From a virus, in IMG/VR virus record IMGVR_UViG_3300014501_000037, positions 1-38,397 of that record: a DNA stretch of 38,397 nucleotides; one strand, given 5' to 3'. The notes below the pieces were generated by a model. That model did no database searches. It had not been told where the DNA came from and saw only the letters and a list, made by a program, of their open reading frames with translations. This document shows, one piece after another, positions 1 to 31,628 of the stretch (its first letter is position 1; every line of letters begins with the position of its first letter). Made by a program: the position numbers and the translations under genes.

Positions 1-681
1 GACCGTGCCCGGGCAGGTCCCGCTCGCCGCGGGATTGAGGCAGGCGACATAATCGGGATTGACCGCGTCCTCGTTGACCGTAAGCAGCGCAGCTGTCGCT
101 GCGCAGGATACTTGGCACGGATAAACGCGGACCTTCGTCAGGTTGGTGAACGTCGCGCCGGCGAGGAACTTGAAGACAAACGGCGACGCTCCGGTGCCCG
201 TGTTGACGCTGAATTCTGCGTTGCAGCCGGCACCGTAGAGGACAATATTGTTGATGGTCGTCCCGGTCGACTGGCAACTCGTCGCGCTGCTATAGACCGT
301 GATGTTGTTGTTGAGCTGCGTCCCGATCTGGATGCCCGGGTTACCCGAAGTCCCCGCGGTGCCGCTGTAGTCGATGACGCAGTGCAGGCTCGCCGTGCAC
401 CACTGCGAGGTCGGGAACGTGATGGTGCACTGGATCGTGCTGGCAAGCACTCCATTGGGGGGGTAGAGGTCGGCAGTGACGACGCCCGCCGTGCTGCTGC
501 AACTGCCCGCCATCTTGGCCATGTTGAGCAGCAGCCAGTCATACGGCGGCGAGGGCGAGACGAGGACGGATAGTCCGCTGACGGGCACGATGCCGGAAGC
601 GACCTGAAAGATGCCGAAGGCTGGTGCTCCACTAGCGGGGCCACCAAGCGCCAATACTGCGAAAAGTAGCCATCTCAGCAT
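1..681 (-). CDS. Sec-exported cysteine-rich protein, partial (3' end outside window)
   Basis: The frame is open from an ATG at 681 to the window edge, at least 227 residues, so the C-terminus is missing. The first 18 residues (MLRWLLFAVLALGGPASG) look like a type I signal peptide: an arginine, a hydrophobic core, then small residues. The mature part is rich in Thr, Ser, Gly and Asn and has about ten cysteines, several in close pairs, which suits disulfide bonding outside the cytoplasm. The start lies inside the last codons of the preceding gene (stop 675-677), so translation is probably coupled. It is the last of four consecutive signal-peptide genes. I do not recognise a family; a surface-exposed adhesin or fibre-like role is only a guess. 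Confidence 0.75.
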   Translation of the reverse strand, partial: MLRWLLFAVLALGGPASGAPAFGIFQVASGIVPVSGLSVLVSPSPPYDWLLLNMAKMAGSCSSTAGVVTADLYPPNGVLASTIQCTITFPTSQWCTASLHCVIDYSGTAGTSGNPGIQIGTQLNNNITVYSSATSCQSTGTTINNIVLYGAGCNAEFSVNTGTGASPFVFKFLAGATFTNLTKVRVYPCQVSCAATAALLTVNEDAVNPDYVACLNPAASGTCPGTV

Positions 682-1424
682 GATCTCTTTACCGCATCCC
701 CGACGCCGATCTGATACGTATCGCCAGTGATCGCCATGCTTAGCCCGCTCTGTGTCGTGCTGACGATCTTGTATTGCGTTCCGATAAAGTTGGAAAACTG
801 AATTCCGGTAAACCCCGATCCGGCCGACCCAGCGTTGTTGTTCTCAACGGCAAAACTATAGATAAAATCATTTAGATTGGATGTACTCACAGATGGTGGG
901 GTGGTCGTGGTCGTGGTTGCTGGCAACGCGCCATTGCTGTCGAATGACGACGATGTGTTTGCTCCGTTAATTCCAAACGCGGCAGCGGTGGAAAAGGTCG
1001 TCGTCGAGGCAAACGTCAGCGTAATGACTTCGCTGGTCAAAGCGGATGATGCCACTCCCCGCCATTGCGTGAGAGTATTGCCGCTTGCTGTGAGTGCCGT
1101 TCCTCGTGCTGCACCATCCCACACGACATTAGAACTGGAAACGCCCGTAATCGCATTGGGCGTATTGTTTGCGAACGCACCGACGATTATGACATCGTTC
1201 GCATCTGATGTTGAAAGCGTGATCGTGTAAGTATTGGTACCGCCCGTGTAATTGGCAGTCGCCGATCCATCGAGCGCAAGAACCGCGCTGCAACTGCCCC
1301 CCGGCGTACTTGGTGAACAAAACCCAGCCGGGCAACCATTAAACTGCGCATAAGTGCGCTCGCTAAGGCAGAACCAAGACAGCGCAACAGTCAGGAAGCT
1401 AGCAAGCGCGAAACGCCAGATCAT
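675..1424 (-). CDS. Sec-exported Ser/Thr-rich protein
   Basis: This 249-residue protein begins with a signal peptide (Arg4, a hydrophobic stretch over about residues 5-19, and a YAQ cleavage-like site near residue 27). The mature part starts with a cysteine-rich segment (CPAGFCSPSTPGGSC) and continues as Thr/Ser/Asn/Gly-rich sequence that looks like beta structure, with a final cysteine at the C-terminus. The ATG overlaps the stop of the 42-residue gene upstream (ATGA at 1421-1424). No enzymatic motif is visible. Its mature N-terminus (AQFNGC) resembles that of the small neighbour (AQFGPGG), so the two may be related. Family not recognised; the exported location is the well-supported part. 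Confidence 0.75.
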   Translation of the reverse strand: MIWRFALASFLTVALSWFCLSERTYAQFNGCPAGFCSPSTPGGSCSAVLALDGSATANYTGGTNTYTITLSTSDANDVIIVGAFANNTPNAITGVSSSNVVWDGAARGTALTASGNTLTQWRGVASSALTSEVITLTFASTTTFSTAAAFGINGANTSSSFDSNGALPATTTTTTPPSVSTSNLNDFIYSFAVENNNAGSAGSGFTGIQFSNFIGTQYKIVSTTQSGLSMAITGDTYQIGVGDAVKRSC

Positions 1425-1549
1425 GTCAGGTCGCTCCCGCCGAGGTCGCCGGAGCAGACCGATGTCGCGCCGCCAGGACCGAACTGGGCCTGAGAGGGGG
1501 CGAGAGGACAGATTGCCAGTGCGAGAGCGAGAAGGAGTCGGGCAAACAT
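1421..1549 (-). CDS. 42-residue protein that is mostly signal peptide
   Basis: The short frame MFARLLLALALAICPLAPSQ... has a near-ideal signal peptide (Arg4, long Leu/Ala core, SQA cleavage site) followed by about 20 mature residues starting QFGPGG and holding one cysteine. It starts 5 bases after the stop of the gene before it and its TGA overlaps the ATG of the next gene, so the spacing fits a real coupled gene. No clear Shine-Dalgarno is seen. It may be a secreted micro-protein, or the truncated first exon-like part of a longer relative, since the next gene has a similar mature N-terminus. Function unknown. Confidence 0.6.
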   Translation of the reverse strand: MFARLLLALALAICPLAPSQAQFGPGGATSVCSGDLGGSDLT

Positions 1550-1554
1550 CGGCG

Positions 1555-2739
1555 TCACCAGTACGTACAAGAAATCTTGTGATTGGTCGTGACGGCGATC
1601 ACCGAGATCGCATGGTTGACGCCGAAACCCAGCGGAGTCGTGTAGCTCGACAAACCCGCGAACGTCGTCGCGGTCGGGGCGGCTAGCGGGTATGACCCTA
1701 CCGCGCCCGCTACCGCAGCTCCGGTAAATGACATCCAGACTGGCTCGCCCGAGCCGTTGGTGGGATCGATGTTGGCGATGGTGAAGCCGTGGAGCGCGGC
1801 GTTCGCCGCGATGATGTTCTGCGCGGTGCCGCCGGTCGTCAGGGCGATCGAGCAATCCGTAGGCGTGACGTTGATCGTCGCGGCGGTGACCGGGGAACTG
1901 TTACCGATGCTCGCCGCGCCGTTCGCGTTGGCATTATCAACCACCGTGTGGACCGAGCCTGCCGCCGTGCACTGCACGATGCCTGTATTGCCCGTCGTGT
2001 ACGTCGGCGGCGAGGAGAGGAACTCGCAGCCGGCGCCGAGCGCGTTGGTTGGCGAGCTAGACGTTCCGCCGATCGGCGCGAGGCCCCAAGTCGCTATCGT
2101 ATTCGGATCGACCTTGCCGATGGCGGTCGTGGCGCTGGCCTGCAAGGTCGCCGTGACCGCGCCGGTCCAACCGACCAGATTGCCGCCAGAAATAATGCCC
2201 AGATATGTCGCGCTGGCCGGCACGGCGCTCCCCGTCGCGCTCACACTGGCGTTCGAACTGCTCCCAGTCGCGCCCGAGCCGAAGTTCGTGAACAGACCCG
2301 CACCACCCGACACGTTGACTGTCGTCGTGCTCGACGCCGTGATGCAGGCGACGTAGGTGTTGGACCCGACTGTGTAGCCGGCAGCCCCCCCGGCGGGGAT
2401 GTAGTCGTCCGAGGTCGTGGCCGTCACGGCATTCGACGTGCCGAGCACGCAATAGGCCGCCGTCGCTCCGACGTTGTAGACGGCTACTGTTCCAGTATTG
2501 GTTGGAAGCGCGACGTTGGTCGACGAGTTGCTGACGCTGAGCGGCGAAGCGTAGTTGCCCGAGGGCGTGAAGCCCGCCAGCGACGCTGATATTGATCCCG
2601 TGACAGGCAGCGGGTTGGCGACGCTGACCGCTATCGGGTTAAGCCCGACGGCTTGCTTGTAGTAGATGACGGTCTGCGCCTGGACCGCCGAGCAGCAAAA
2701 CAGCAGAAAGCCGAGAACCGGCCCCAACCTCTTAATCAT
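1555..2739 (-). CDS. Sec-exported beta-rich protein, fibre-like
   Basis: I place the start at 2739, where the ATG overlaps the stop of the holin-like gene (ATGA at 2736-2739); an upstream in-frame extension is GC-shadow sequence. The 394-residue product opens with a signal peptide (Lys-Arg at 3-4, hydrophobic core, VQAQ cleavage site near 21). The rest is a low-complexity Ser/Thr/Gly/Ala-rich beta sequence without catalytic motifs, ending in a compact C-terminal segment (GVNHAISVIAVTTN then CTYW). Such sequences occur in tail-fibre or exported surface proteins. Having a Sec signal on a protein in a phage late operon is unusual. Exact role unknown. Confidence 0.75.
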   Translation of the reverse strand: MIKRLGPVLGFLLFCCSAVQAQTVIYYKQAVGLNPIAVSVANPLPVTGSISASLAGFTPSGNYASPLSVSNSSTNVALPTNTGTVAVYNVGATAAYCVLGTSNAVTATTSDDYIPAGGAAGYTVGSNTYVACITASSTTTVNVSGGAGLFTNFGSGATGSSSNASVSATGSAVPASATYLGIISGGNLVGWTGAVTATLQASATTAIGKVDPNTIATWGLAPIGGTSSSPTNALGAGCEFLSSPPTYTTGNTGIVQCTAAGSVHTVVDNANANGAASIGNSSPVTAATINVTPTDCSIALTTGGTAQNIIAANAALHGFTIANIDPTNGSGEPVWMSFTGAAVAGAVGSYPLAAPTATTFAGLSSYTTPLGFGVNHAISVIAVTTNHKISCTYW

Positions 2740-3017
2740 TTCCGCCTCACGATGATGTTCACCGCGATGACGAACGCGGCGTAGCCGCCCAGGCCCACGA
2801 GCTGCTGCGTCGACGGGTCCTTCGGGATGATCGCGAGGCTGAGCCAAAACACCGAGACGACCGTCAGCAGGCTGAACAGGTTGCCGAGCGCTATGACGGT
2901 CTTCTGGGAGAGCGGCTTGAGCAGCAGGAGGAGGATGTCGAGGGCCGCGCCTTCGGCGGGCGAACTAGTTGGTTCCGGCGGATCGTCCTCGACGACTTCG
3001 AACTGCGGCTGCGCCAT
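2736..3017 (-). CDS. Putative holin (two membrane segments)
   Basis: The 93-residue product has an acidic, proline-rich N-terminus, then two hydrophobic segments at about residues 38-61 (LFSLLTVVSVFWLSLAII region) and 69-85 (LVGLGGYAAFVIAVNIIV region), and ends in Arg-Arg-Lys. Short length, two transmembrane spans and a charged tail fit a class II holin, and the place after the ejection genes fits a lysis module. I prefer the ATG at 3017, which has GAGG about nine bases upstream; an ATG at 3026 is the alternative. Its 5' end overlaps the preceding gene by about 50 bases in another frame. No endolysin is recognisable beside it, so the holin call rests on topology and position only. Confidence 0.55.
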   Translation of the reverse strand: MAQPQFEVVEDDPPEPTSSPAEGAALDILLLLLKPLSQKTVIALGNLFSLLTVVSVFWLSLAIIPKDPSTQQLVGLGGYAAFVIAVNIIVRRK

Positions 3018-3225
3018 GCCCGTCATCCTCGATCATGGTCTGTGCATCGGCCATGGTAAAATCGCCCGCCTCCTCGGCGGGTACACCCTTGTCCTTCTGG
3101 AGCGTAGCGTACAGAGTTGTTAATGCCTTCAATGCGTCAACTGCCTCTGCGAAGGGCGTCGCGGCCTGTTCGGCGCGCGTTCGGATGTCCCTGGCCAGCG
3201 CTTCGAGTTCGGATTTCAGAGTCAC
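2965..3225 (-). CDS. Hypothetical 86-residue protein
   Basis: Starts at a GTG that overlaps the stop of the large ejection-type gene (GTGA at 3222-3225). Residues 1-60 are helical and charged and could form a coiled coil; the last 15 residues, encoded in the overlap with the holin-like gene, are Arg/Gly-rich and look like read-out of a sequence constrained by the other frame. A CGCCCGCC/GGCGGGT palindrome (3063-3083) lies inside the gene. No family recognised. Its place between ejection and holin-like genes may indicate a lysis-associated or late structural function, but nothing in the sequence shows it. Confidence 0.6.
   Translation of the reverse strand: MTLKSELEALARDIRTRAEQAATPFAEAVDALKALTTLYATLQKDKGVPAEEAGDFTMADAQTMIEDDGHGAAAVRSRRGRSAGTN
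3063..3083. repeat. Short palindromic repeat, copy 1
   Basis: CGCCCGCC and GGCGGGT flank a 5-base loop. It lies within the coding sequence of the 86-residue gene and matches the core of palindromes at 6581-6604, 33213-33238, 37726-37746 and, more loosely, 29653-29674. Confidence 0.5.
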
Positions 3226-6200
3226 TGCGACGGTGCTCCGTACTGGGACTCGCCGACGCCGGCACCGACCGCGCCGCCGACGTTCATCCAGTTCTGCACG
3301 GCCTGCTTGGCCATCTCGCGTCCCTGCGGGTCGCCCTTGAGGCCCTTCTGCACGAAGCGCATCAGCGTCGGGCTGTTCACCAGCTTGGTGACGAAAGCGT
3401 AATACTTACCCAAGGCCGCGCGTGCAAGCGGTTCGGCGATCGGTATCTTCGGCAGGAACTCGCCACCCTTGCCAAGCACCGACGACCACGGGTGCTCGAC
3501 CTTGGCCATGGCCGACATCGACTGCGCCGTGCCATGTGCATTCTTCGACGCCATCAGGAAGTCCATCTCCTTCGCCAATAGTTTCATCTGCTCCCCCGAC
3601 ACGCCGGGAAACATGATATTCTGAATCTCGGGCGAGACCTTGGCCAACCGGGTTGACGGCTCCAATGTCCCCATCAGAACACGCTGCGCCCACACTTGTC
3701 GCAGCATGTTGAACTCCGGCGACTGCTCGCCGAACCGGGCGCCAGCAGCCAAAATCAAATCCTCACTACCAAGGATGCGATCGACTGCCTGCGCGGCGCC
3801 CACGGTCGGATCGTAGATGAAGCCCAGCGGATCGGTACGCCGGCCCTGCGCCAGGGTACGCTGGTGGTCGGCTCGTATCTTGGCTATCTCCTTGTTCAGG
3901 GTCGCCAGCGGGTCTTTCTGGGCAGCCTGCTTGGCCGCGTCGGCGGCGACGCGCGCTCGCTCGATGATGTCGGCCATCTTGTCGCCGGGCCGCACCGGCA
4001 GTTCCAGCTTGCCGTTGAGCGCCGAGATGTGCTGCGCCTGCTGGAGGAGCTTGGCCGAAGCTTCCCGGCCGTGGACGGCTTCCAGCATGCCGGACTTGAC
4101 CCGCGACAGGACTTCCCGCGCGAACACGTTGCCGTCGATCTGGTCGGGGATCAGCGTCTTCGACGCTTCCAGCATCTGCTGCACGTCGGCCGCCTTGACG
4201 CCGGCCCACAGATTAGGGCCGATCAATTGCGCGACTTTGCGGGTCAGGTCGCTGCGCCCCTCCTTGACCAGCGTGTCGAACAGCACCTTGGGATCGGCCG
4301 GCAGGCCCGACTCCAGGCCTTTCATCACCGCCTCGATGCGCGCATCCTGCAGCGGCCTGATCTGCTCGCGGTACCACTTGTCGGTAGCGTCGAGCAGCCG
4401 CGCTGCTGTCTTCAATTCCGGCACGGCGTTAACGTCGTGCAGGATGTTGTCGACGTGCGTGGCGAAGAACTTGTACACGCCGTCGCGGATACCCGGCGTC
4501 AAATCGTGATAGTCGACGTTGGAGCGGAACCATGACCGCAATTCATGCAGTTGCCCGAACGTCGGCTGGGCCGGAGGCTTGATAACCTCGCCGGTTTTCT
4601 CGTCGATCGTTCCAGCAAGATCGGCTAGCTTCTTCACCGCGTCGGGATATTTCGCCTTGAACGGCTCGGGCAACTGCTCCAAAAAACTGGCGGCGGTCTT
4701 CGGCAGATCGCCGATGTCGGGCAGGTGCCCTTCAGCCGCCTGATCGGCCTGGCTGTACCAGAGCTTGGCACGCTCGGCGATGCCCTGGCGTATTTTGACC
4801 AGCTTGTCGCCCACCGCAGTCCACAAGTCGCCGCTGTTGTGGCCGGACTTGGCCGTCCGCATCGCCGCGTCGACATCCTTCTGGATGTCCTCGAAGCCGG
4901 CATCGATCAAACCCTGCGCCGCCTTGCGCGATTCGGCAGCACTTCGCTCCAGTATTTCGCCTTTCGCTGGAAACAATTCTATAGGGCCGCCTTCTTTAGT
5001 AGGCTTAGCATACCCTTCTTTTACAAGACTTTCGTGAATTGCCTTGGCAAAACGACTTGTTTCCCCGGAAGCGTTGACAAATAGTTTTTTACCTTCCGAT
5101 TTGGCCACTTCGGCTGCTTTAAGATACGCCGCTTTTCCTAGATTAGTATAGCGCGGCATCGCCCCGACTTCCGATTTCCACTTGCTCTCGTTGCTGATAT
5201 GATTGAGTTGGTATGCATCGTCGCCGTATTTATTAAGCGTCGCGGTCAAGGCAACTTTGCCTTGCGCATCTTTAATTTCAATTTTCCGACTTGTACCTTC
5301 GCCATCTTCCATAAAATGCGCGCGCCAAGGTTTCACATCCGTGGTGAATCCTTCTGGCAAATAGCCAGCAGCTAGGCGTTTTCCCGAAAGTACGTCCGCT
5401 AGCTTCTTATCGGCGGCGGTCTGCGCTTCAAGGCGCTTGGCGAGGATCGCCTCGCCCGCCTTCTGGGTCGACGGCGCGGTCGCGGGATCACTGATCTTGC
5501 CTTCAGTCTTCACCCCCATGTTTTCGAGCAGTTCGCCCGCGGTCTTCTCGTAATGCGCAGTCGCTGACTGCAACAGCGGCTTCTGCATGCGGAATGCCGG
5601 GTCGAACACCTCGGCGACGTTGGCCAAGTGCGGCGACTCCTTGGCCCAGGTCGACGGCGCGACCAGCACGTCCTTGTCACGCAGGCCCAACGCCGTATCC
5701 AGCGCCTCCTCGTCAGCGCCTAGGAAGTGCGCCAAGGCCTTCGGCGCACCCTGCATCACCGCACCCTTGATCGCAGGTGCCACAGCCGCGATTCCCCGCC
5801 CGGCAGCCGTCCCGACGCCGCTGGCCACGCCCGAGAGCGCGAGGTCGCCCGCTTCCTCGCCCGCGGAGCGGTCATAGACGCCCGACAGGCCCATCACGAT
5901 GTCGTTGAAACCCTGCCCAACCGCGCCACCGACCGCGCCACCGGCAATCGCACCGCCCAGCGTGCCGGGAGGACCGGCGACAGAACCGGCCACGCCGCCC
6001 AGTATCTCGCCGCCTATCGACCCGATCGTCGGGGCCGCCGCAGCAGTCAGTCCAGCGGCGGGCGCATCCCCGAAGCCCTTGGGGCGTCGCAGGGTGCCAT
6101 CGTCGTCGATGTAAAGGTTGCCCGCGCGCTCCTTGACCTTGCCGGGATAGCCTCGCTCCAGCGCCTTGCGGCGCTCTTTATCGTTGACGGCCATGTCGTA

Positions 6201-6545
6201 GAGGGTCTGGGACGTGAAATCGATACCCTGGTAGTTCGGCTTGGTCCGCAGCTTGCCTTCCGGGTCAAGAAACTGCACTCCTTCGGGAATTTCCTCGTAC
6301 TCCTCGTCGCTCGTGACCTTGTACGGCTTGGTACGGACGTTGCCGGTCGGATCCTTGAACTTCATGCCCGGCATCAGGGCCTGATAATCGTCGTCCGACT
6401 TGATGGACGGCACCGTGATCGGGTCGCGCCCACCGAGATTGCCGCGGGCGAGCTTGGCCGCGGCGCGCGTGTCGGCATCCTGCGCCATCGCAGGCTCGTC
6501 GATGCCACCTTCCGGGGTCTTGATCAGGAGATCGTCGTCGGCCAT
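3222..6545 (-). CDS. Large internal virion / DNA-ejection-type protein with a GNAT-like insert
   Basis: The start is the ATG at 6545, overlapping the previous stop (TGATG). The 1107-residue protein is the largest of the window. It contains a Gly/Ala-rich hydrophobic stretch at about residues 160-225 (GGAIAGGAVGGAVGQG type), long helical, charged segments and many Ala/Lys/Glu-rich repeats, as in podovirus internal proteins that are ejected with the genome. No lytic transglycosylase motif is evident. Residues about 385-530 differ in style and base composition (DNA about 4940-5400 is AT-richer) and resemble a GNAT fold C-half: a Gly-Lys-Ala-Ala loop, then a helix and a strand (GKKLFVNAS) and a second helix. 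Third of three ejection-type genes in a row. Role inferred from size, composition and order. Confidence 0.65.
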   Translation of the reverse strand: MADDDLLIKTPEGGIDEPAMAQDADTRAAAKLARGNLGGRDPITVPSIKSDDDYQALMPGMKFKDPTGNVRTKPYKVTSDEEYEEIPEGVQFLDPEGKLRTKPNYQGIDFTSQTLYDMAVNDKERRKALERGYPGKVKERAGNLYIDDDGTLRRPKGFGDAPAAGLTAAAAPTIGSIGGEILGGVAGSVAGPPGTLGGAIAGGAVGGAVGQGFNDIVMGLSGVYDRSAGEEAGDLALSGVASGVGTAAGRGIAAVAPAIKGAVMQGAPKALAHFLGADEEALDTALGLRDKDVLVAPSTWAKESPHLANVAEVFDPAFRMQKPLLQSATAHYEKTAGELLENMGVKTEGKISDPATAPSTQKAGEAILAKRLEAQTAADKKLADVLSGKRLAAGYLPEGFTTDVKPWRAHFMEDGEGTSRKIEIKDAQGKVALTATLNKYGDDAYQLNHISNESKWKSEVGAMPRYTNLGKAAYLKAAEVAKSEGKKLFVNASGETSRFAKAIHESLVKEGYAKPTKEGGPIELFPAKGEILERSAAESRKAAQGLIDAGFEDIQKDVDAAMRTAKSGHNSGDLWTAVGDKLVKIRQGIAERAKLWYSQADQAAEGHLPDIGDLPKTAASFLEQLPEPFKAKYPDAVKKLADLAGTIDEKTGEVIKPPAQPTFGQLHELRSWFRSNVDYHDLTPGIRDGVYKFFATHVDNILHDVNAVPELKTAARLLDATDKWYREQIRPLQDARIEAVMKGLESGLPADPKVLFDTLVKEGRSDLTRKVAQLIGPNLWAGVKAADVQQMLEASKTLIPDQIDGNVFAREVLSRVKSGMLEAVHGREASAKLLQQAQHISALNGKLELPVRPGDKMADIIERARVAADAAKQAAQKDPLATLNKEIAKIRADHQRTLAQGRRTDPLGFIYDPTVGAAQAVDRILGSEDLILAAGARFGEQSPEFNMLRQVWAQRVLMGTLEPSTRLAKVSPEIQNIMFPGVSGEQMKLLAKEMDFLMASKNAHGTAQSMSAMAKVEHPWSSVLGKGGEFLPKIPIAEPLARAALGKYYAFVTKLVNSPTLMRFVQKGLKGDPQGREMAKQAVQNWMNVGGAVGAGVGESQYGAPSQ

Positions 6546-8245
6546 CACTGTCCCACGATCGGCGCTTCTTCCCAGGCGGCTTTACCCGCCGTAGGCGGGC
6601 GAGCCTGATTAGCAGGCGGGTCAGGCGTCCACTTGTTCTCCAGCTGATCTTCCTGGCTCTTTTGCAGGCGCCCCAGCCGATCCTTGACCTCTTTCAGCGA
6701 GCGCAGCGTGTTCGCCGTGGTGTCGCCGAGGCTCAGGCCGCCGATGATGTCGTTGATCCGGTCGGCGTCCGCCGCCAGCGGTCGGCTGGCGCGATCGAAC
6801 AGCAGGCTCTGCGCCGCGGTGCGCAGGTACTGGATGTTGCGCATGAACTGCTCGCGGTCGGTCTTGCTGCTGCCGAAGATGTTCTCGACCCGCTCGCCCA
6901 GCCGCGTCGCCCGGCCGGCGAGGCCGGCGGCGCCGGCATGGGTGTCGAGCACCTGGATCGCGTCGTCGAGCGTCTTCGTCGCCTCGCCGTACTGCGTGAC
7001 ACGCCGCTGCAAGTCGACGCGCTTGTTCGGAGTCATCGCCGGCTGACTGGCAGTCGCGACTTCCTGCCTGATCTTGTCGTCCTGCGCATCAACTTCATCC
7101 GGTCCCGGCGGATTGCCCTCGGCAGTGCGCTTGGCGACCCAATCGGACAGTCGCCGCGACACTTCCTTTTCCTTGGTCGGCGCACCGCCTATGCCGCCAA
7201 CTTTGCCAACCTGGTGCTGCTGCATATACTCGATTTTCTGCTCGGTAGTCCAGTCGGGGTGCTCCAGCCCCAGCTCGCGCAGCAGTTTTAGTTGGATGTT
7301 GTTGCCGGGGTCGTTGAGTCCCTCCATGATGTCGTGCCGCGCCTGGAGGCGCTGGCCGACTTCCTGAGGCGTCATGTTCTTCGGATCGGCGGGCGGGTGC
7401 TCCTTCTCCCAGTTCGCGACCTGGGAGGCGTACAAGTCCTTCTTCAAGTTCCAGGTCTCGAAGTCCTCCGTCGACTTTTGGAGTTTATCGCGCAGAGTGA
7501 CCATCGATTCCTTGGCCTGTATCAGTTCCGGCGCCATGCCGGCGTCCAGCATGGCGATGGCCTTCTTGTCGTCGAACTGGGCGGCGACGGACAGGAGCTT
7601 CACCTTGCCCAGATCCTGATCGAGATTGAAAGTCTTCAAGGCGTCGTCGGTCAGCGCGCGCTCCATGTCGAAGCGCTTCATCGCCAGGGCCGTGTTGTCC
7701 TTCCACGCCTGATAGGCCGACTTGTAGCCCTCCTCGTCGCTGTTCTTGATGGCGGTCATCGCCGCGGCCGACGCGTTGAGCGCCGAGGTCATCGGCGTCT
7801 TGGTAAAGGCGCTGGCGAGGATGCCGAAGATCGAGCCCAGCGAGGCGAAGTCTTCGAGAGGGCCGCGAACGCGATCCTTGCGCTCTCTATCCGCGTCCCA
7901 GTTGGGCGGCACCGCGTTGAGGTCCGCAGACTCGGCCTTCTGCGCCCGCGCGAACTGCGCCCTGTCCGCCTCCAGGCGGTCGTTGACGCGCTTGTACTCG
8001 CTCTGCTCGGCCGCGCCGCGCTGCTTCTCGATGCCCGATAACTGATGACCAAGCGCGTCGACTTTATCCGGGTTGTACTTGTCCAGAAAATCGTCGACGT
8101 GGGGTGTCGCGCTGTCCTTGCCCGAGTTGTCGGCGGGACGGGCGTTGTAGAGCGGGCTCTCGGTGCCGTCCGGCGGCGGGAGGACGAGCTTCTTCCCCGA
8201 GGGCGTCGTGACTTCCTGATCACCGTCGACGATCGGCTCGGGCAT
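6545..8245 (-). CDS. Internal virion / ejection-type protein
   Basis: The 566-residue protein starts directly after the preceding stop (TAG at 8246-8248). It has a disordered, charged N-terminus, a short Ala/Ser/Gly-rich segment at about 135-165 (SIFGILASAF, ASAAAMTAIK), and then long amphipathic helices with coiled-coil-like Lys/Glu/Gln content to the end. No catalytic motif is seen. Position between two other large helical proteins, downstream of adaptor and gp10-like genes, matches the place of P22-type ejection proteins. A palindromic repeat (6581-6604) lies near the 3' end within the coding sequence. Confidence 0.6.
   Translation of the reverse strand: MPEPIVDGDQEVTTPSGKKLVLPPPDGTESPLYNARPADNSGKDSATPHVDDFLDKYNPDKVDALGHQLSGIEKQRGAAEQSEYKRVNDRLEADRAQFARAQKAESADLNAVPPNWDADRERKDRVRGPLEDFASLGSIFGILASAFTKTPMTSALNASAAAMTAIKNSDEEGYKSAYQAWKDNTALAMKRFDMERALTDDALKTFNLDQDLGKVKLLSVAAQFDDKKAIAMLDAGMAPELIQAKESMVTLRDKLQKSTEDFETWNLKKDLYASQVANWEKEHPPADPKNMTPQEVGQRLQARHDIMEGLNDPGNNIQLKLLRELGLEHPDWTTEQKIEYMQQHQVGKVGGIGGAPTKEKEVSRRLSDWVAKRTAEGNPPGPDEVDAQDDKIRQEVATASQPAMTPNKRVDLQRRVTQYGEATKTLDDAIQVLDTHAGAAGLAGRATRLGERVENIFGSSKTDREQFMRNIQYLRTAAQSLLFDRASRPLAADADRINDIIGGLSLGDTTANTLRSLKEVKDRLGRLQKSQEDQLENKWTPDPPANQARPPTAGKAAWEEAPIVGQ
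6581..6604. repeat. Short palindromic repeat, copy 2
   Basis: CCCGCC-gta-GGCGGG with a flanking TTTA on one side and CGAGC on the other. On the opposite strand it reads gctCGCCCGCC...GGCGGGTAAA, nearly the same as the copy at 33213-33238. It is inside the 3' part of the coding sequence. Confidence 0.5.
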
Positions 8246-21231: not shown

Positions 21232-21741
21232 TTACCACCCCTGCATCTTGCGCGAGACTCGCTGCGCCGCGCGGGCGCCGGCATTCGGCTCGATGCCCGT
21301 CGTCACCCGACCATTGAGCGCCACAGCGCCCTGGGCGATACCGGCGCTAAACTCCGCGCCGTTGGGCTGAAAGCCGATCGGAGCCGGCGTGGTCGACTTG
21401 AGCCGCGCCATGGCTGCGTCGGCCTCCTTGGCCGCGATGTCGCCCGCCCGCATGTTGTCGTTCATGTCGGTGATGCGCAGCGACGCCATGTCCTCCTTGG
21501 TCGCACCCGTCAGTTCGGCAGCCTTCTCGACCCTGACCTCGGACCCAGCCTCCATCTGGCGATAAGTCCTGTCCGTCGCCGCCATCCTGGCGCTACGGAT
21601 GAACGGCATCACCACGGCGCTGTCCTCCGCATCCGAGGTGCCGATGCCGCCGCCGCAGACCGGGCAGAACTTCGGATGCGGGGTGCTGGCGTCCCACGGG
21701 AAGGTCTTGCGACACTCCGGCAGGGGACAACGCAATTTCAT
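21232..21741 (-). CDS. Zinc-ribbon hypothetical protein
   Basis: I choose the ATG at 21741, which overlaps the terminase stop (ATGA). The 169-residue protein has four cysteines in two CPxC-like knuckles near the N-terminus (RCPLPECRKTF and FCPVCGGG), typical of a zinc ribbon, followed by a helical, Ala/Glu-rich body. It is between terminase and portal. A packaging accessory role is plausible by position; no family recognised. Confidence 0.6.
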   Translation of the reverse strand: MKLRCPLPECRKTFPWDASTPHPKFCPVCGGGIGTSDAEDSAVVMPFIRSARMAATDRTYRQMEAGSEVRVEKAAELTGATKEDMASLRITDMNDNMRAGDIAAKEADAAMARLKSTTPAPIGFQPNGAEFSAGIAQGAVALNGRVTTGIEPNAGARAAQRVSRKMQGW

Positions 21742-23651
21742 CGATATCTCCAAGCATTCCGCATCGCCACCCGCTGCTGGACCGTCCGGGTCGCCTGCTT
21801 CTGCTTGAAGAACATATCAAGGTGGTTGCGATTGAACAAGGCGACCTGATCGACGATCGACGCCCGCTTGCGCGCCTGCTCAGCCTCTCGGGTCTGCCGG
21901 CGCGAGATCATGATGTTCTTGATCTTGGTGTCCCAGTAGTACGACGCCATCGCCGCGGCCACCACGCGATCGTCGCGCGTGCTCTGCGGCGCCCCGATGG
22001 AGTCGCCCTCCCGCGCAACGGTCTTCATCTCCTCGACCAGCGCCGCCGATCTAATCCGCATCTTGCCGGTCGACACGAAGTCGCGCAGGCGCTCCATGAT
22101 CATGATCTTGCGCTTGGTCGCCGTTTCCCAGTGATAGTTAGACCCGACGCCCATGGCGTCGACGCGCGTGTAGATGTAGGTCTTGACGTTCTTGAAGATG
22201 CTGGTCAGCCCGCGGTCCTCCAAGTCCTTGCGCTGGCTGCGATCGTTGTCGATCTGGAATTTAAGCGACCGCAGCTCGTTGAACACGGCCGAGCCGGGAC
22301 CGTTAATCTCCAGGATGTAGCTGATGTCCGAGCCGTTGCTGCCGTACCAGCCGAGAAGACTGGCGATGACCCAGGCAAACTGCCGGGTCGTGATCAGTGG
22401 CCAAGCGTATTCTGCCACCTGATCCAGACCATCAGCATAGCATCGGAACACCTCGATCGCCGAGCGATCGTTATTCTCATTCTCGCCAAAAGCCGGGTCG
22501 GCAGCCAGGACATACTGCGCACCATTCTCCGGCTCCTCCCAGACCTTGAGTTCGATAGAACGCATGTTCTGCGCCGGATATATCCGCATGTCGGTGAAGT
22601 TGTCGCCGGCCATGTACATGTAGGTCTTGGCCTTGTGAACGACGTGCTTGTTACTCTGGTCGGTGAGCTGCTGCGCGCCAAAAAAGACCGCGCCGCTCTG
22701 CTGGAACGCTTCTTCTTCGGTCCAAGCCTGCTCGGCAAGCATGATCGAGTCGTCTTCACCATCGTCGTAGTCCTCATCGTCATCGAAGTTGGGATCGAAC
22801 TTGCGCCGCACCCAAGCCAGCTGCTCGGGCATGATGTCATGATCGTAAAGCGTCTTGACCGCCCTTATCTTTTCCAGTTCTTTCTCGGTCGGTGGCTGAA
22901 TACCGTAAGTCGCGAAGTCGGCATGATCCCTGTCGATACGTTGCAGCGGTTTGGACCACCAGCCGAGGAACAGGCACTTGCAGTGGGCCTCGTCCTTCTT
23001 GGCGCGCTTCCACATCACGTACCAGGAATTGAAACCGCGCGCCGTAGACTCGTACACATAAAGCCGGTCGGGATGTTCTTCCGACAGCGACTGCTCGAAT
23101 GACTTCAGGCCCTCGTCGTTGTCGAACGAGCACAGCTCGGACAGATGCGCCAGGGACAAGCCTTCGGATCGGCCAAGGGTGCCACTCGACTTCGACTTCT
23201 TGACGCCGGCCGACATGAACAGCATCGACGAGTCGTTGACCAATTCGAAGCTGTCGCGGTTGCCGGACCCGGTGCCCTTGACCCGAGGAAATTTCAGGGT
23301 TGCCGGCAAATTCTGCACCATGGTCACGAGTTCTTTGCGGGCCGACTCCTTGTGCGGCGCCGTGTCGAACACAAGCGCGCCCTTGAGCCCCTCATGAGTG
23401 CCAAGGTAGAAAATAGACAGTGCGCGAGCGATGGTCGACAGGCCCAATTGGCGCGACTTCAGGACAAAAATCTTGTGGATGTCCTGCTCAAGCGCATCGA
23501 ATACGGTCGAGATGAACTTGATCTGGCCATCGTACAGACTGTCGCCGAGGCAAATCCGGCCGGCATCCTTCGAATTGACGTAGCAGCGCTTGAGGAACTG
23601 ATAAAACGCAGCTTCCGCCTTGTTGCGCTTCGCTCTGGGCCAACCTGCCAT
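21738..23651 (-). CDS. Terminase large subunit
   Basis: A 637-residue DNA-packaging motor. The N-terminal ATPase has a Walker A-like segment near residue 65 (FVLKSRQLGLST) and an acidic strand further on (LAHLSELCSFD). The C-terminal nuclease has the expected spaced acidic residues: an ADPAFGENENNDRSAIEV strand-loop, a LEINGPGSAVFNEL segment and a DDRVVAAAMA segment near 590. All three are where RNase H-like terminase nucleases hold catalytic acids. It cuts and pumps the genome through the portal encoded downstream. Its start codon lies in the loop edge of a perfect 8-bp hairpin (23642-23662) that also spans the upstream stop. Confidence 0.9.
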   Translation of the reverse strand: MAGWPRAKRNKAEAAFYQFLKRCYVNSKDAGRICLGDSLYDGQIKFISTVFDALEQDIHKIFVLKSRQLGLSTIARALSIFYLGTHEGLKGALVFDTAPHKESARKELVTMVQNLPATLKFPRVKGTGSGNRDSFELVNDSSMLFMSAGVKKSKSSGTLGRSEGLSLAHLSELCSFDNDEGLKSFEQSLSEEHPDRLYVYESTARGFNSWYVMWKRAKKDEAHCKCLFLGWWSKPLQRIDRDHADFATYGIQPPTEKELEKIRAVKTLYDHDIMPEQLAWVRRKFDPNFDDDEDYDDGEDDSIMLAEQAWTEEEAFQQSGAVFFGAQQLTDQSNKHVVHKAKTYMYMAGDNFTDMRIYPAQNMRSIELKVWEEPENGAQYVLAADPAFGENENNDRSAIEVFRCYADGLDQVAEYAWPLITTRQFAWVIASLLGWYGSNGSDISYILEINGPGSAVFNELRSLKFQIDNDRSQRKDLEDRGLTSIFKNVKTYIYTRVDAMGVGSNYHWETATKRKIMIMERLRDFVSTGKMRIRSAALVEEMKTVAREGDSIGAPQSTRDDRVVAAAMASYYWDTKIKNIMISRRQTREAEQARKRASIVDQVALFNRNHLDMFFKQKQATRTVQQRVAMRNAWRYR

Positions 23652-28494: not shown

Positions 28495-28679
28495 CTGGCC
28501 TTGTCCTGATACTTTTTCCACAGGCCATTGGCGAGACAGAGTCCGTGCGAGACCGAGTTTCCCCGCCGAACGTCGTGAACGTACTCCCGGGTCTCAGGTC
28601 GGTAGCGGACCTCGACGCCCTGGGCGCAGTTCGGACAAACAGTGCGACAGAGATCGCCGAAGTCAGCGGTGATCTGCAT
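28491..28679 (-). CDS. Hypothetical zinc-knuckle-like protein
   Basis: The ATG at 28679 lies inside the end of the recombinase gene. The 62-residue product has CPNC near residue 15-18 and a later His-Gly-Leu-Cys (about 45-48), enough for a small zinc site with His-35. The pattern suggests a nucleic-acid or protein-binding zinc finger. No family recognised. Confidence 0.5.
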   Translation of the reverse strand: MQITADFGDLCRTVCPNCAQGVEVRYRPETREYVHDVRRGNSVSHGLCLANGLWKKYQDKAR

Positions 28680-29370
28680 GCGCCCGCTCCATGATCCGCT
28701 TGACCTGGAAGCACTCGAACGGCTTGCTGGTTCGATTCCTGTGGCCCCTCTCGTTGAGCGCCCTGGCAATGTTCCACGAGGTCAGCTTCTGCTCAGCGAG
28801 TGTCAGGACTTCCTTCACGATCCGCTGCTCCGCGGGCACCGGCTCCAGCCTGGACTCGCGCTTGGCGCCGACGACGCGATAGCCGTAGGGCGCCTCGCCG
28901 CCGAGGTGGCCGTTGTTGCGCCGCTTGCCGCGGCGGCCGTCTTCGGTGCGCTCGTTGATCCGCTCGCGCTCGAACTCGGCGACCAGAGCCAGCATCCCAA
29001 AAAACATCTTGGCCGTGCCGTTCTCGGTCACCGGGCTGGTGCCCATGTCGACCAGGATCAAGTGGACCTTGCGAGACTTCAGCATCTCCGCGGTGTTGAG
29101 CGCGTCGGACGCCGATCGGAACAGCCGATCCATCTTGCTCGCCACGATCACGTCGCCCGGCTTGGCCGTCGCCAGCATGTCCTTGCCCGCCGGCCGCTCG
29201 CTCAGCGGGATGCTGCCGGAGATGCCCTTGTCGGTGAAGATCACGAAGTCGAACGCCGAGGCGCCGCGCAGGTCGGCGACGGCCTTGGCCTTTCGAACCT
29301 GCTCGTCGATCGACGTGGCGCCGTCCTCGGCCTGTTCGACGGTGCTCACCCTGGCGTAGCTAAGAATCAT
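28663..29370 (-). CDS. Serine recombinase (resolvase/invertase type)
   Basis: A 235-residue protein with the resolvase catalytic domain: nucleophile Ser9 in YARVSTVEQ, a conserved SGSIPLSERPAGK region with catalytic-type Arg, and the DRLFRS segment. A long helix (MLALVAEFERERINERTEDG) precedes a short C-terminal DNA-binding region (NIARALNERGHRNRTS) of HTH_7/recombinase type. It is small, unlike large serine integrases. A palindrome (29384-29402) with a possible promoter lies just upstream. It may act on sites bounding the glycan genes, in DNA inversion, or be a moron; substrate sites unknown. Confidence 0.85.
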   Translation of the reverse strand: MILSYARVSTVEQAEDGATSIDEQVRKAKAVADLRGASAFDFVIFTDKGISGSIPLSERPAGKDMLATAKPGDVIVASKMDRLFRSASDALNTAEMLKSRKVHLILVDMGTSPVTENGTAKMFFGMLALVAEFERERINERTEDGRRGKRRNNGHLGGEAPYGYRVVGAKRESRLEPVPAEQRIVKEVLTLAEQKLTSWNIARALNERGHRNRTSKPFECFQVKRIMERAHADHR

Positions 29371-29383
29371 GGCTGGTCCCCTA

Positions 29384-29402
29384 TGTAGTCATCCTAACTA
29401 CA
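29384..29402. promoter_or_regulatory. GTAGT-N7-ACTAC palindrome, site 1
   Basis: TGTAGT and ACTACA (6-bp arms) flank a 7-base spacer, between the recombinase start (29370) and the end of the epimerase gene; the epimerase stop 29398-29400 is inside it. A TTGACG at 29418-29423 on the minus strand is 17 bases from a TAGTTA hexamer at 29395-29400, so the palindrome covers a possible -10. The same arms and spacing recur at 33342-33360. Confidence 0.45.
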
Positions 29403-30390
29403 CTAGAGCCTCGGCGCCGTCAAGCGCTTTCTTGAGGTGCCTGCCGACGCGGTCGATGCCCTCCTCCAGGGTGATCTTCGGCCGGTAATACTGGAGCAGC
29501 TTGTAAGTATCGGCGACGCGGCGGAAGACGCCCTCGGGCTTGGTCGAGTCGTTGACGATGTTGCAGGTCGATGTCGGTCCCCCGAACTGCGTATGCGCCA
29601 TCGCCGCCAAGTCGCGGAACGACACGCCGCGACCCGTCCCGAGGTTCAGGGGCTCGCCCGCTGGAAGCGGGTCCATGGTCTGCAGCACCGCCTCGACGAT
29701 ATCGTCGACGTGGATGAAGTCGCGCTGCTGGTCGCCGGAGCCCCAGACCGTGATCGGATCCTCGCGCCGGAGGACGCGACGGATGATCGAGGGGAACGGG
29801 TAGGTCATGTCCTGATCCTCGCCGTAGCCGCCGAACGGCCGGTACACCTTCACGTCGAGGCCGTACCTCTCGGCGGCGATCTTGGCCAGGTACTCGCCGG
29901 ACAGCTTGGACCAGCCGTAGGTCATGTCAGGCATGCCGACCCGCGTGCCGTCGAAGTGCAGGTAGGTCTCGACGAGATCGCAGTTGTTGTCGCGGGTCTG
30001 CAGTTCAACCGGGTAGGCGGCCGACGACGAGAAGTAGATGACCCTGGGCATCGTCTTGGACTGCGTGCACCAGTTGAACAGGTCGCTGTCGATCGCCAGG
30101 TCGGCCGCCACGCCGAGCGGGTCGCCCTCGATGTTCAGCCGGCCGCCGACCACCGCGGCGCAGTGGATGACCAGATCGAACTCACTGGCGACGTTATGCT
30201 TGAACCATTGTCGACAGTCCATGGCCGTGAACTGGAAACCAAACAGGTTCTTCGGCTGGACCACCCACTTCCAACGCTCCAGTCCGGTCGACAAATCGTC
30301 AACGATAATGACCAGATGGCCGTCGTCGGCCAGCCGGCGCGTGAAGGCACGCCCAACGAAGCCCGCCCCTCCGGTGATCAGGACTTTCAT
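29398..30390 (-). CDS. NAD-dependent epimerase/dehydratase (extended SDR)
   Basis: The start is the ATG at 30390, overlapping the previous stop (ATGA). The 330-residue protein has the NAD-binding GGAGFVG near residue 8, a strand-2 Asp-Asp (VIIVDDLSTG), the TYGWSK catalytic YxxxK segment, and a GxGDQQRDFIHVDD segment typical of UDP-sugar epimerases. It should interconvert or modify a nucleotide sugar for the neighbouring glycosyltransferases. The tail overlaps a palindrome at 29384-29402. A mild palindromic-repeat variant (29653-29674) is in its coding sequence. Confidence 0.85.
   Translation of the reverse strand: MKVLITGGAGFVGRAFTRRLADDGHLVIIVDDLSTGLERWKWVVQPKNLFGFQFTAMDCRQWFKHNVASEFDLVIHCAAVVGGRLNIEGDPLGVAADLAIDSDLFNWCTQSKTMPRVIYFSSSAAYPVELQTRDNNCDLVETYLHFDGTRVGMPDMTYGWSKLSGEYLAKIAAERYGLDVKVYRPFGGYGEDQDMTYPFPSIIRRVLRREDPITVWGSGDQQRDFIHVDDIVEAVLQTMDPLPAGEPLNLGTGRGVSFRDLAAMAHTQFGGPTSTCNIVNDSTKPEGVFRRVADTYKLLQYYRPKITLEEGIDRVGRHLKKALDGAEALV
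29653..29674. repeat. Short palindromic repeat, variant copy
   Basis: CTCGCCCGCT-gga-AGCGGGTCC: same outer bases and position of the loop as copies at 33213-33238 and 37726-37746, but with CT/AG in place of the CC/GG stem base pair. In the epimerase coding sequence. Confidence 0.35.
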
Positions 30391-31628
30391 GACGGCGGCA
30401 AGCTCCCGTAGTCGAACCGCACCCCCGGCAGCCATGGCTGCGGCTCCTTGACCCGGAGGCCGAAGAAACAGACGCCCGGAGACCTCGCCGTCAGGACGAT
30501 CTCCCGGTACGCCGCGGCGCCGGGCACCGCGAGCTGCATGACCTGACCCTGGTCAGTCTCCGGCGCCAGATCGACATCGACGTTGAAGCCGGACTGGTCG
30601 TCGGCGACATTGATCCTGCCGCCCTGCTTGCCGCCGCTGACGATCAGGTCGCAGGGACCGATGACAGGGACGCGCATTATCGGTGACTGCTCAGCAACTT
30701 CTGCTTCGGTTGCTCGCCAACAGAAAGGACCAAATCCCTGGAAATCGCGCGCGCGCCAGTCGCCACTATACACCCCGCCGAGCATCGGCACCTGATGCGC
30801 GAATATCGTGTACACGCTGCCGTCGTGGAAGAACGGGTGGTTGACGCCAGGACGCAGTTTACCCTCCCGCACACGGGCGAGGTTGTCCCGGTAACGCTCG
30901 AACCCGGAAGGATTCCGGGCAAGCGCGAAATCGCCGTCGGCGTACTTCAGGCCGAGCGGGGCAATGTTCTGGTCCAGCATGGTGGCGCGGTTCGGAGTCA
31001 GTGCCAGGCTGGCGAGGCCGTGCGCGGCCAGCACCCGGTCGAAGTTCCAGTCGGCGACGAGGAAATGCTGCTCGCCGCGGAAGGCCCAGTAGCGGCCGAT
31101 GTCGACCCCGCTGAGCTGCGAGAACAGCAGCCGGTTCTCGGTGGTCCAGACCGTGCGGTAGTTCTGCAGGACCAGCTCGGCCGCTTCGCGGGTAAACATA
31201 ATCTGGCCTGCACCAAGGTTGTGAAAAATTCCGTAACCTTGCTTCTGTATAAGGATTCGATCTTCATAAGACCGCGCCGACACTGCCCCAACTTCTAAAC
31301 CTTCTTCCGCACCACGTTTAAATAAGTGCATCATTGGTTTGAAAAAATCTTTATCAAGCAAAACATCATTCTCGCAAAGCCCACAAAATTCGTAGCCTCG
31401 TTCCAACATCATAGTCAGTGCGTAAACAATAGTTGGACCGGAGCCGCCACATATATTGCTATGCATCCATTTGAAATTAAATCGATCTGGTAATTTTTTT
31501 CCTTCAGTAGTTTTTGACCCATCGCACCAATGCAAATCCCAGCCATCTTGCGCTAACAACGGCTCAATCGAACGCCGAGACAATTCGGGACGGTCACATG
31601 TTAAAAAACAAATAGCTACGTTGCTCAC
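30387..31628 (-). CDS. Glycosyltransferase, GT2-like
   Basis: A 413-residue protein starting with GTG that overlaps the AP2-like ORF's stop. The N-terminus (VAICFLTCDRPELSRRSIEPLL) and the later FCGLCENDVLLDKDFF segment are as in GT-A glycosyltransferases, with END in the place of the usual DxD. The C-terminal ~120 residues appear to be a beta-rich accessory domain. A sharp drop in GC occurs within the gene near 31195: the N-terminal part (31195-31628) is AT-rich, the rest GC-rich, with no change of frame. Likely adds a sugar to a phage or host surface polymer. Confidence 0.7.
   Translation of the reverse strand: MSNVAICFLTCDRPELSRRSIEPLLAQDGWDLHWCDGSKTTEGKKLPDRFNFKWMHSNICGGSGPTIVYALTMMLERGYEFCGLCENDVLLDKDFFKPMMHLFKRGAEEGLEVGAVSARSYEDRILIQKQGYGIFHNLGAGQIMFTREAAELVLQNYRTVWTTENRLLFSQLSGVDIGRYWAFRGEQHFLVADWNFDRVLAAHGLASLALTPNRATMLDQNIAPLGLKYADGDFALARNPSGFERYRDNLARVREGKLRPGVNHPFFHDGSVYTIFAHQVPMLGGVYSGDWRARDFQGFGPFCWRATEAEVAEQSPIMRVPVIGPCDLIVSGGKQGGRINVADDQSGFNVDVDLAPETDQGQVMQLAVPGAAAYREIVLTARSPGVCFFGLRVKEPQPWLPGVRFDYGSLPPS

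Follow-up and report, generated by a model that had tools for sequence, protein, structure and literature searches.

A candidate cassette of exported, fibre-type proteins at the distal end of a phage structural block

The virion proteins of phages are normally assembled in the cytoplasm, and tailed-phage assembly is taught in this way. Podovirus tail fibres of the T7 gp17 and epsilon15 gp20 type carry an N-terminal attachment domain, and in T7 the fibre gene follows gp16. In epsilon15 gp20, Cobetia Carin1 Dpo31 (whose annotation calls it structurally identified and validated) and HTVC010P, this domain stands at the start of the protein and no signal peptide precedes it. Phages also encode envelope proteins that block superinfection, such as T5 Llp, phi80 Cor and lambda Lom and Bor, which are single lipoproteins or outer-membrane proteins. 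The spanins (Rz/Rz1) pair an outer-membrane lipoprotein with a coiled-coil inner-membrane protein. The Ena pilins of spore appendages are jelly rolls joined by inter-subunit disulfides.

The locus described here comprises four neighbouring genes named B to E and is compared with these systems below. Relatives of the phage have fibres with the same N-terminal attachment domain, late position and single copy per genome as the T7 and epsilon15 type, but unlike epsilon15 gp20, Dpo31 and HTVC010P they place a signal peptide before the domain; B to E of the window lack the domain. Like Llp, Cor, Lom and Bor, the products of B to E bear signal peptides and would act outside the cytoplasm, but they form a multi-gene, beta-rich cassette in a structural block and have no lipobox. 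Unlike the spanins, they combine cleavable leaders with beta-rich rather than helical sequence. The likeness to Ena pilins concerns one domain of B and is weak (Z about 7, equalled by unrelated folds). Bradyrhizobium phage ppBdUSDA122-1 offers a further parallel: its tail fibre has a signal peptide, many cysteines in even number and a signal-bearing neighbour, but the context is that of a lambda-like siphovirus with a J-like protein, where no B-C-D cassette was seen.

The window, meaning the whole stretch of DNA analysed, is a 38,397-base IMG/VR virus record and a piece of a soil-phage genome some 63 kb long. Closest to it are G001 (63,405 bases) and G002 (62,596 bases), whose terminal overlaps of 127 and 123 bases suggest closed contigs; relatives of about 63 kb have the same gene run. 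The presumed late genes of the window lie on the minus strand (Table 1), with a gene for an 86-aa protein between the 1108-aa gene and the two-TM gene, and the contig end is reached within E. A PHROG search gave no function for the 1108-aa protein, past which B to E occupy the distal end of the structural block, a layout equal to that of L007 and L008. The gene upstream of B had been called holin-like; it has two TM segments, but PHROG and Pfam give this label no support.

The window terminase matches those of G001, G002 and G005 and weakly that of G015, with no match in G007-G012 or G016. The large terminases of G001 (L047:15980-18895, +) and G005 (L053:11300-14236, -) are interrupted in frame by about 330 aa that include a LAGLIDADG-like domain scoring above the Pfam cut-off, a probable intein, and the window terminase is without it. 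Elsewhere in the window, a serine recombinase/invertase-type gene (28663-29370, -; PHROG 95/125) lies near a nucleotide-sugar epimerase gene (29398-30435). G001 and G005 have further late genes in common with ppBdUSDA122-1, and G005, a sister of the window, encodes a leader-bearing 722-aa fibre-like protein with 54-70% segments in common with the fibre of that phage. These shared late genes and fibre segments suggest a Bradyrhizobium-like host.

Table 1. Features of the window discussed in the text
Feature	Position	Strand	Remarks
Terminase-like gene	21738-23651	-	Window late block, followed by head and tail genes
1108-aa protein, presumed last large gene of the structural module	3222-6548	-	78-84% identity; synteny anchor with L007/L008
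Two-TM, holin-like gene	2736-3026	-	Directly upstream of B; C-terminus conserved in G001, G002 and L004
Gene B, 394 aa	1555-2739	-	Leader 2677-2739; middle beta/Gly-rich and of low complexity; C-terminal domain conserved
Conserved C-terminal domain of B (NVTPTDCS...HKISCTYW)	1558-1872	-	Alignment; jelly-roll-like in model
Gene C, 42 aa	1421-1549	-	Signal peptide followed by QFGPGGATSVCSGDL...GSDLT
Gene D, 249 aa	675-1424	-	Leader 1347-1424, QFNGCxxGFC, then variable domain
QFNGCPAGFC motif, predicted mature N-terminus of D	1317-1346	-	Motif scan
Gene E, at least 227 aa	1-681	-	Leader 619-681; 3' part past contig end

Genes B to E are all in frame on the minus strand and closely coupled, with short overlaps or gaps between them: B overlaps the gene upstream by 4 nt, C starts 5 nt past the stop of B, C and D overlap as ATGA, and D and E also overlap. 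Shine-Dalgarno-like motifs stand ahead of the starts. The four leaders have the positive n-region, hydrophobic core and A-x-A site of Sec and signal peptidase I substrates, and no lipobox ([LVI][ASTVIG][GAS]C) was found in any of them. Signal peptides were called with our own heuristic, built on charge, h-region and A-x-A rules, which predicts cleavage at AVQA^QTVIYY in B, PSQA^QFGPGG in C, RTYA^QFNGCP in D and GAPA^FGIFQ in E; about 2.6% of shuffled N-termini score with this caller, and it missed or misplaced sites at L085, L154 and L142-L144. By this heuristic, B, C, D and E alone among the window genes reach a score of at least 4, and the chance of four such genes lying side by side among about 47 is about 2e-4. 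Four consecutive signal-peptide genes, as originally predicted, were thereby confirmed by heuristic prediction. The homologues of B, C and D carry signal peptides at the corresponding position, so that the N-termini are not mis-set, and mis-set starts were dropped as an explanation. Since E ends at the contig edge, the run of signal-bearing genes may extend further.

Searches of B to E against PHROGs and Pfam gave no usable match, no tail-fibre, collar or attachment family and no T7 gp17/epsilon15-type N-terminal domain, and no outer-membrane barrel signature was found in the four proteins. Additionally, tblastn of B, C and the B domain against 50,697 phage records returned no match.

Disulfides form in the periplasm, and exported proteins therefore tend to have even, paired cysteines. 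In ten related contigs and the window, the ratio of even to odd cysteine counts is 56:11 for signal-bearing proteins versus 221:321 for the others (p=1.2e-11), figures that are inflated by relatedness, with a consistent direction. Cysteine density in the signal-bearing proteins is twice that of the others in the same set. Among the mature proteins of the window, the earlier description "Cys-rich" suits E, which has 10 cysteines in the part seen; B has 6, D 4 and C 1. Taken with the leaders, this pattern indicates that the B to E proteins are very probably exported.

The homologues of B (L002-L006, L085-L110) nearly all start with a signal peptide and occur in runs of similar genes. Intact signal-bearing members have 2, 4, 6 or 8 cysteines, an even number in 24/24 (one judged by eye), and the position of the cysteine pair differs between subfamilies; signal-less members have 0 or 1. 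A search with the B domain in 398 sampled Pseudomonadota genomes, the phylum of a Zetaproteobacteria genome, found one member, which is signal-less. The AF2 model of full B reaches a pLDDT of about 70-80 in the last 105 or so residues only and is poor elsewhere. This C-terminal domain is modelled as jelly-roll-like, with weak matches to many unrelated folds (Z up to 7.7), among which are the disulfide-linked Ena spore appendage subunits 7a02 (Z 7.3) and 8pdz (Z 6.8). A PDB sequence search with B gave chance-level matches only.

Full-length proteins of the C family measure about 160-171 aa and end in SP-A^QFG.GG at one side and G[NST]DLT at the other. Both flanks of the window gene align to L117 with 73-78% DNA identity, and about 390 nt are absent in frame, from which the 42-aa gene is read as an in-frame internal deletion of the longer protein. 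Signal-bearing C members have 2, 4 or 6 mature cysteines in 15/15 cases (some of them near-copies), versus none in 6/6 signal-less homologues, which begin with another N-terminal module (QSGxVTPxH...GVIxDGG) or with none; Fisher's test on cysteines and signal peptide gives 2e-5 with relatedness ignored. The window C retains a single cysteine after its deletion.

The model of C, with a mean pLDDT of 68, folds as a beta-sandwich; its best, though weak, match is 8h89 chain J from the capsid of Ralstonia phage GP4 (Z 7.9, 3.1 A over 121 residues, 15% identity). We identify this chain as the GP4 cement protein from PMC9698820; a PDB sequence search with C gave no match, and export is not described for that cement protein. 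Fold matches of the C model in BFVD are uncharacterised phage proteins. Because the C model is middling and the full B model poor, the matches of both are taken as weak, and these models do not decide function.

Protein searches with D and E in viral contigs found no relatives, and those of D came to light through the motif at its mature N-terminus. In the viral collection QFNGCxxGFC occurs at 24 loci, a few being copies of the same contig, and in 24/24 a signal peptide ends just before the Q, with unrelated domains following. In 257 Gb of cellular genomes the QFNGC motif has 12 matches, mostly in unfitting phyla and probably due to chance. Very short signal-bearing proteins in L010, L022, L025 and L032 join a QFNGCxxGFC start to a second cysteine-bearing end (e.g. 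CSNSLDLTDQCNSQY) and are read as the minimal form of the D family. The codon usage of D is unlike the rest of the window, and D was for this reason missed by a codon-based gene caller; its variable domain was likely acquired recently.

G007, G010, G012, G016 and L015 all retain the order B-C-D amid different virion genes, and it persists even in genomes whose packaging genes show no recognisable relationship. In G007-G009 the cassette adjoins capsid genes rather than lysis genes. L005, L007, L008 and other relatives have more signal-bearing, beta-rich genes at the cassette site. At the position of the cassette, L007 also encodes a LamG-like protein that is signal-less, and the same domain follows a signal peptide and QFNGC in L019 and L020. 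The cassette, which lies where fibre genes lie, thus reads as modular and fast-evolving, its domains swapping between leader-bearing and leader-less forms.

Other genes of the relatives bear leaders too. Among neighbours of the cassette, Tat-like twin-arginine leaders occur in L004:10466-11593 (+; SRRKFIRG) and L002:11497-12390 (+; SRRRLLAA), neither protein having a Pfam family. In G007, a 104-aa protein with the Tat-type leader SSRRGFLFG (L058:13073-13387, -) contains 49 residues that match the C-terminal region of the phage's own major capsid protein at 61% identity (E=4e-20 pairwise) and is possibly an exported capsid fragment. The adjacent 116-aa gene (L058:13384-13734, -) also has a Tat-type leader, and no family was found for it. 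Signal-bearing proteins near lysis genes in G009 (L067:5580-6398, +; no Pfam match) and G012 (gene 54, 32405-31662, -) resemble, by eye, alphaproteobacterial outer-membrane proteins.

Leaders are also carried by recognisable tail fibres. Proteins of G012, G008 and L149 match PHROG tail fibre/spike families (PHROG 1640, 13893 and 1171), with profile position 2, or its equivalent, right past a leader of 26-33 residues. Among the genomes scanned, the T7/epsilon15-type N-domain was found only in G007-G009, G012 and G016, once per genome and with a leader in 5/5. A scan for this domain gave 13 loci, ten of which have a leader (cleavage placed by eye in some); in L147, L148 and L152 the initiator Met stands directly ahead of the domain. 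Eight aligned leaders end exactly at the position of that Met, and what stands ahead of the domain is compatible with signal peptidase I in 8/8 (ANA, AAA, ATA, TQA, ADS, AHG, VRA and ARA). Some leader-bearing fibres (L143, L149) have odd cysteine counts.

The tail fibre of ppBdUSDA122-1 (WAX24263.1) has a signal peptide, 18 cysteines and a Collar domain above the Pfam cut-off; the gene before it encodes a signal peptide and 6 cysteines, and the J-like protein immediately precedes the pair. In ppBeUSDA76-1, RHph_Y3_1 and RC1, the comparable genes lack a leader and encode few paired cysteines or none. The Bradyrhizobium phage lipoprotein was sought in the 398 sampled Pseudomonadota genomes, and none was found. 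No report of signal-peptide-bearing tail fibres was found in a search of open-access literature. Phage fibres are well known, but a fibre routinely exported, disulfide-paired and led by a signal peptide exactly before its canonical N-terminus would appear to be new.

From the leaders, the conserved cassette, the cysteine pairing that goes with the leader, the exchange with signal-less homologues and the leaders set exactly before fibre N-domains in related phages, all of which are read in the sequence, we infer translocation, disulfide formation, fibre-like behaviour of B to E and attachment at or after lysis. We consider it narrowly probable that B to E are an exported cassette of receptor-binding or tail-fibre type, mostly stabilised by disulfides, whose products join virions at lysis. 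They are not filed in any fibre family, and by analogy may work like the relatives' exported fibres. Under this proposal B to E would form the distal and rapidly evolving part of the late (structural) block, and host Sec would translocate their precursors. Signal peptidase I would then cut them, often leaving an N-terminal Gln. Disulfide bonds would stabilise the proteins in the periplasm, the shortened C excepted, and the parts would attach to otherwise complete virions when the cell lyses. We know of no tailed phage described as adding Sec-exported fibres after lysis, which counts against this explanation, as do the failure of B to E to match any tail-fibre, collar or attachment family, the single cysteine left in C and the odd cysteine counts of some leader-bearing fibres.

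The main rival, and the main idea of the original prediction, holds that the proteins do not belong to the particle but are retained in the periplasm or at the envelope of the infected cell, where they would prevent superinfection, hide receptors or render cells adhesive. The B to E signal peptides are real, other exported proteins lie near lysis genes, some of them outer-membrane-like (G009 gene 60, G012 gene 54), and a variable domain behind a constant motif, as in D, suits adhesion as well as receptor binding. We nevertheless regard this rival as rather unlikely. The reasoning that an exported protein is not a virion protein fails on the relatives' bona fide tail fibres, where signal peptides precede canonical N-domains present once per genome, and on the signal-bearing tail fibre of ppBdUSDA122-1. 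Neither a lipobox nor a barrel signature accompanies B to E, and domains of the cassette are exchanged for signal-less forms at equivalent sites. Signal-less homologues in virions had been named in advance as a contrary sign, and signal-less homologues do exist: six in the C family, three in the fibre family and the L007 protein. For B to E themselves, superinfection exclusion or adhesion is a possible role.

Periplasmic parts of lysis had also been proposed. The place of the cassette right after the two-TM gene and the lysis genes nearby in G001 and G002 would suit spanin-like or murein-binding accessories that follow a holin. The proteins are, however, beta-rich and variable, the cassette of G007-G009 adjoins capsid genes, and no lipobox or coiled-coil i-spanin layout was found, nor any hydrolase family with PHROG and Pfam, so that this reading was dropped as improbable. 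Exported decoys or pilus-like appendages, in which B, C and D self-assemble outside the cell into disulfide-linked fibres unrelated to the virion, would draw on the paired cysteines, the constant QFNGCxxGFC end and the weak resemblance of the B domain to Ena subunits, but those Z-scores fall in an uninformative range, tied with unrelated cupins and plant virus coats, and the leader-bearing fibres of these phages have virion domains, which makes such appendages very improbable. It is most improbable that the proteins are ordinary cytoplasmic virion parts whose hydrophobic N-termini anchor them in the membrane or arose by chance: the predictor is heuristic and some shuffled N-termini score, but precise A-x-A sites fall at family boundaries and cysteine parity tracks the leader; the membrane anchor was dropped.

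If the fibre parts of the preferred exported cassette do join at lysis, the virion would be assembled in two separate compartments. It is conceivable, though somewhat short of probable, that a group of phages, probably of Bradyrhizobium-like soil bacteria, routinely exports its fibres and receptor-binding proteins through Sec, and perhaps Tat too, with signal peptidase restoring the canonical fibre N-terminus, disulfides forming in the periplasm and attachment to particles only at lysis. A clean signal peptide before a known fibre N-terminus makes this testable in cultured Bradyrhizobium diazoefficiens USDA 122 and its phage. Were export and oxidation of the fibres to come first, final assembly would take place at lysis, and co-infecting phages could share fibres. 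Host Sec, SPase and Dsb would become phage host factors, and the "hypothetical secreted" proteins of soil viromes would become candidate receptor-binding proteins.
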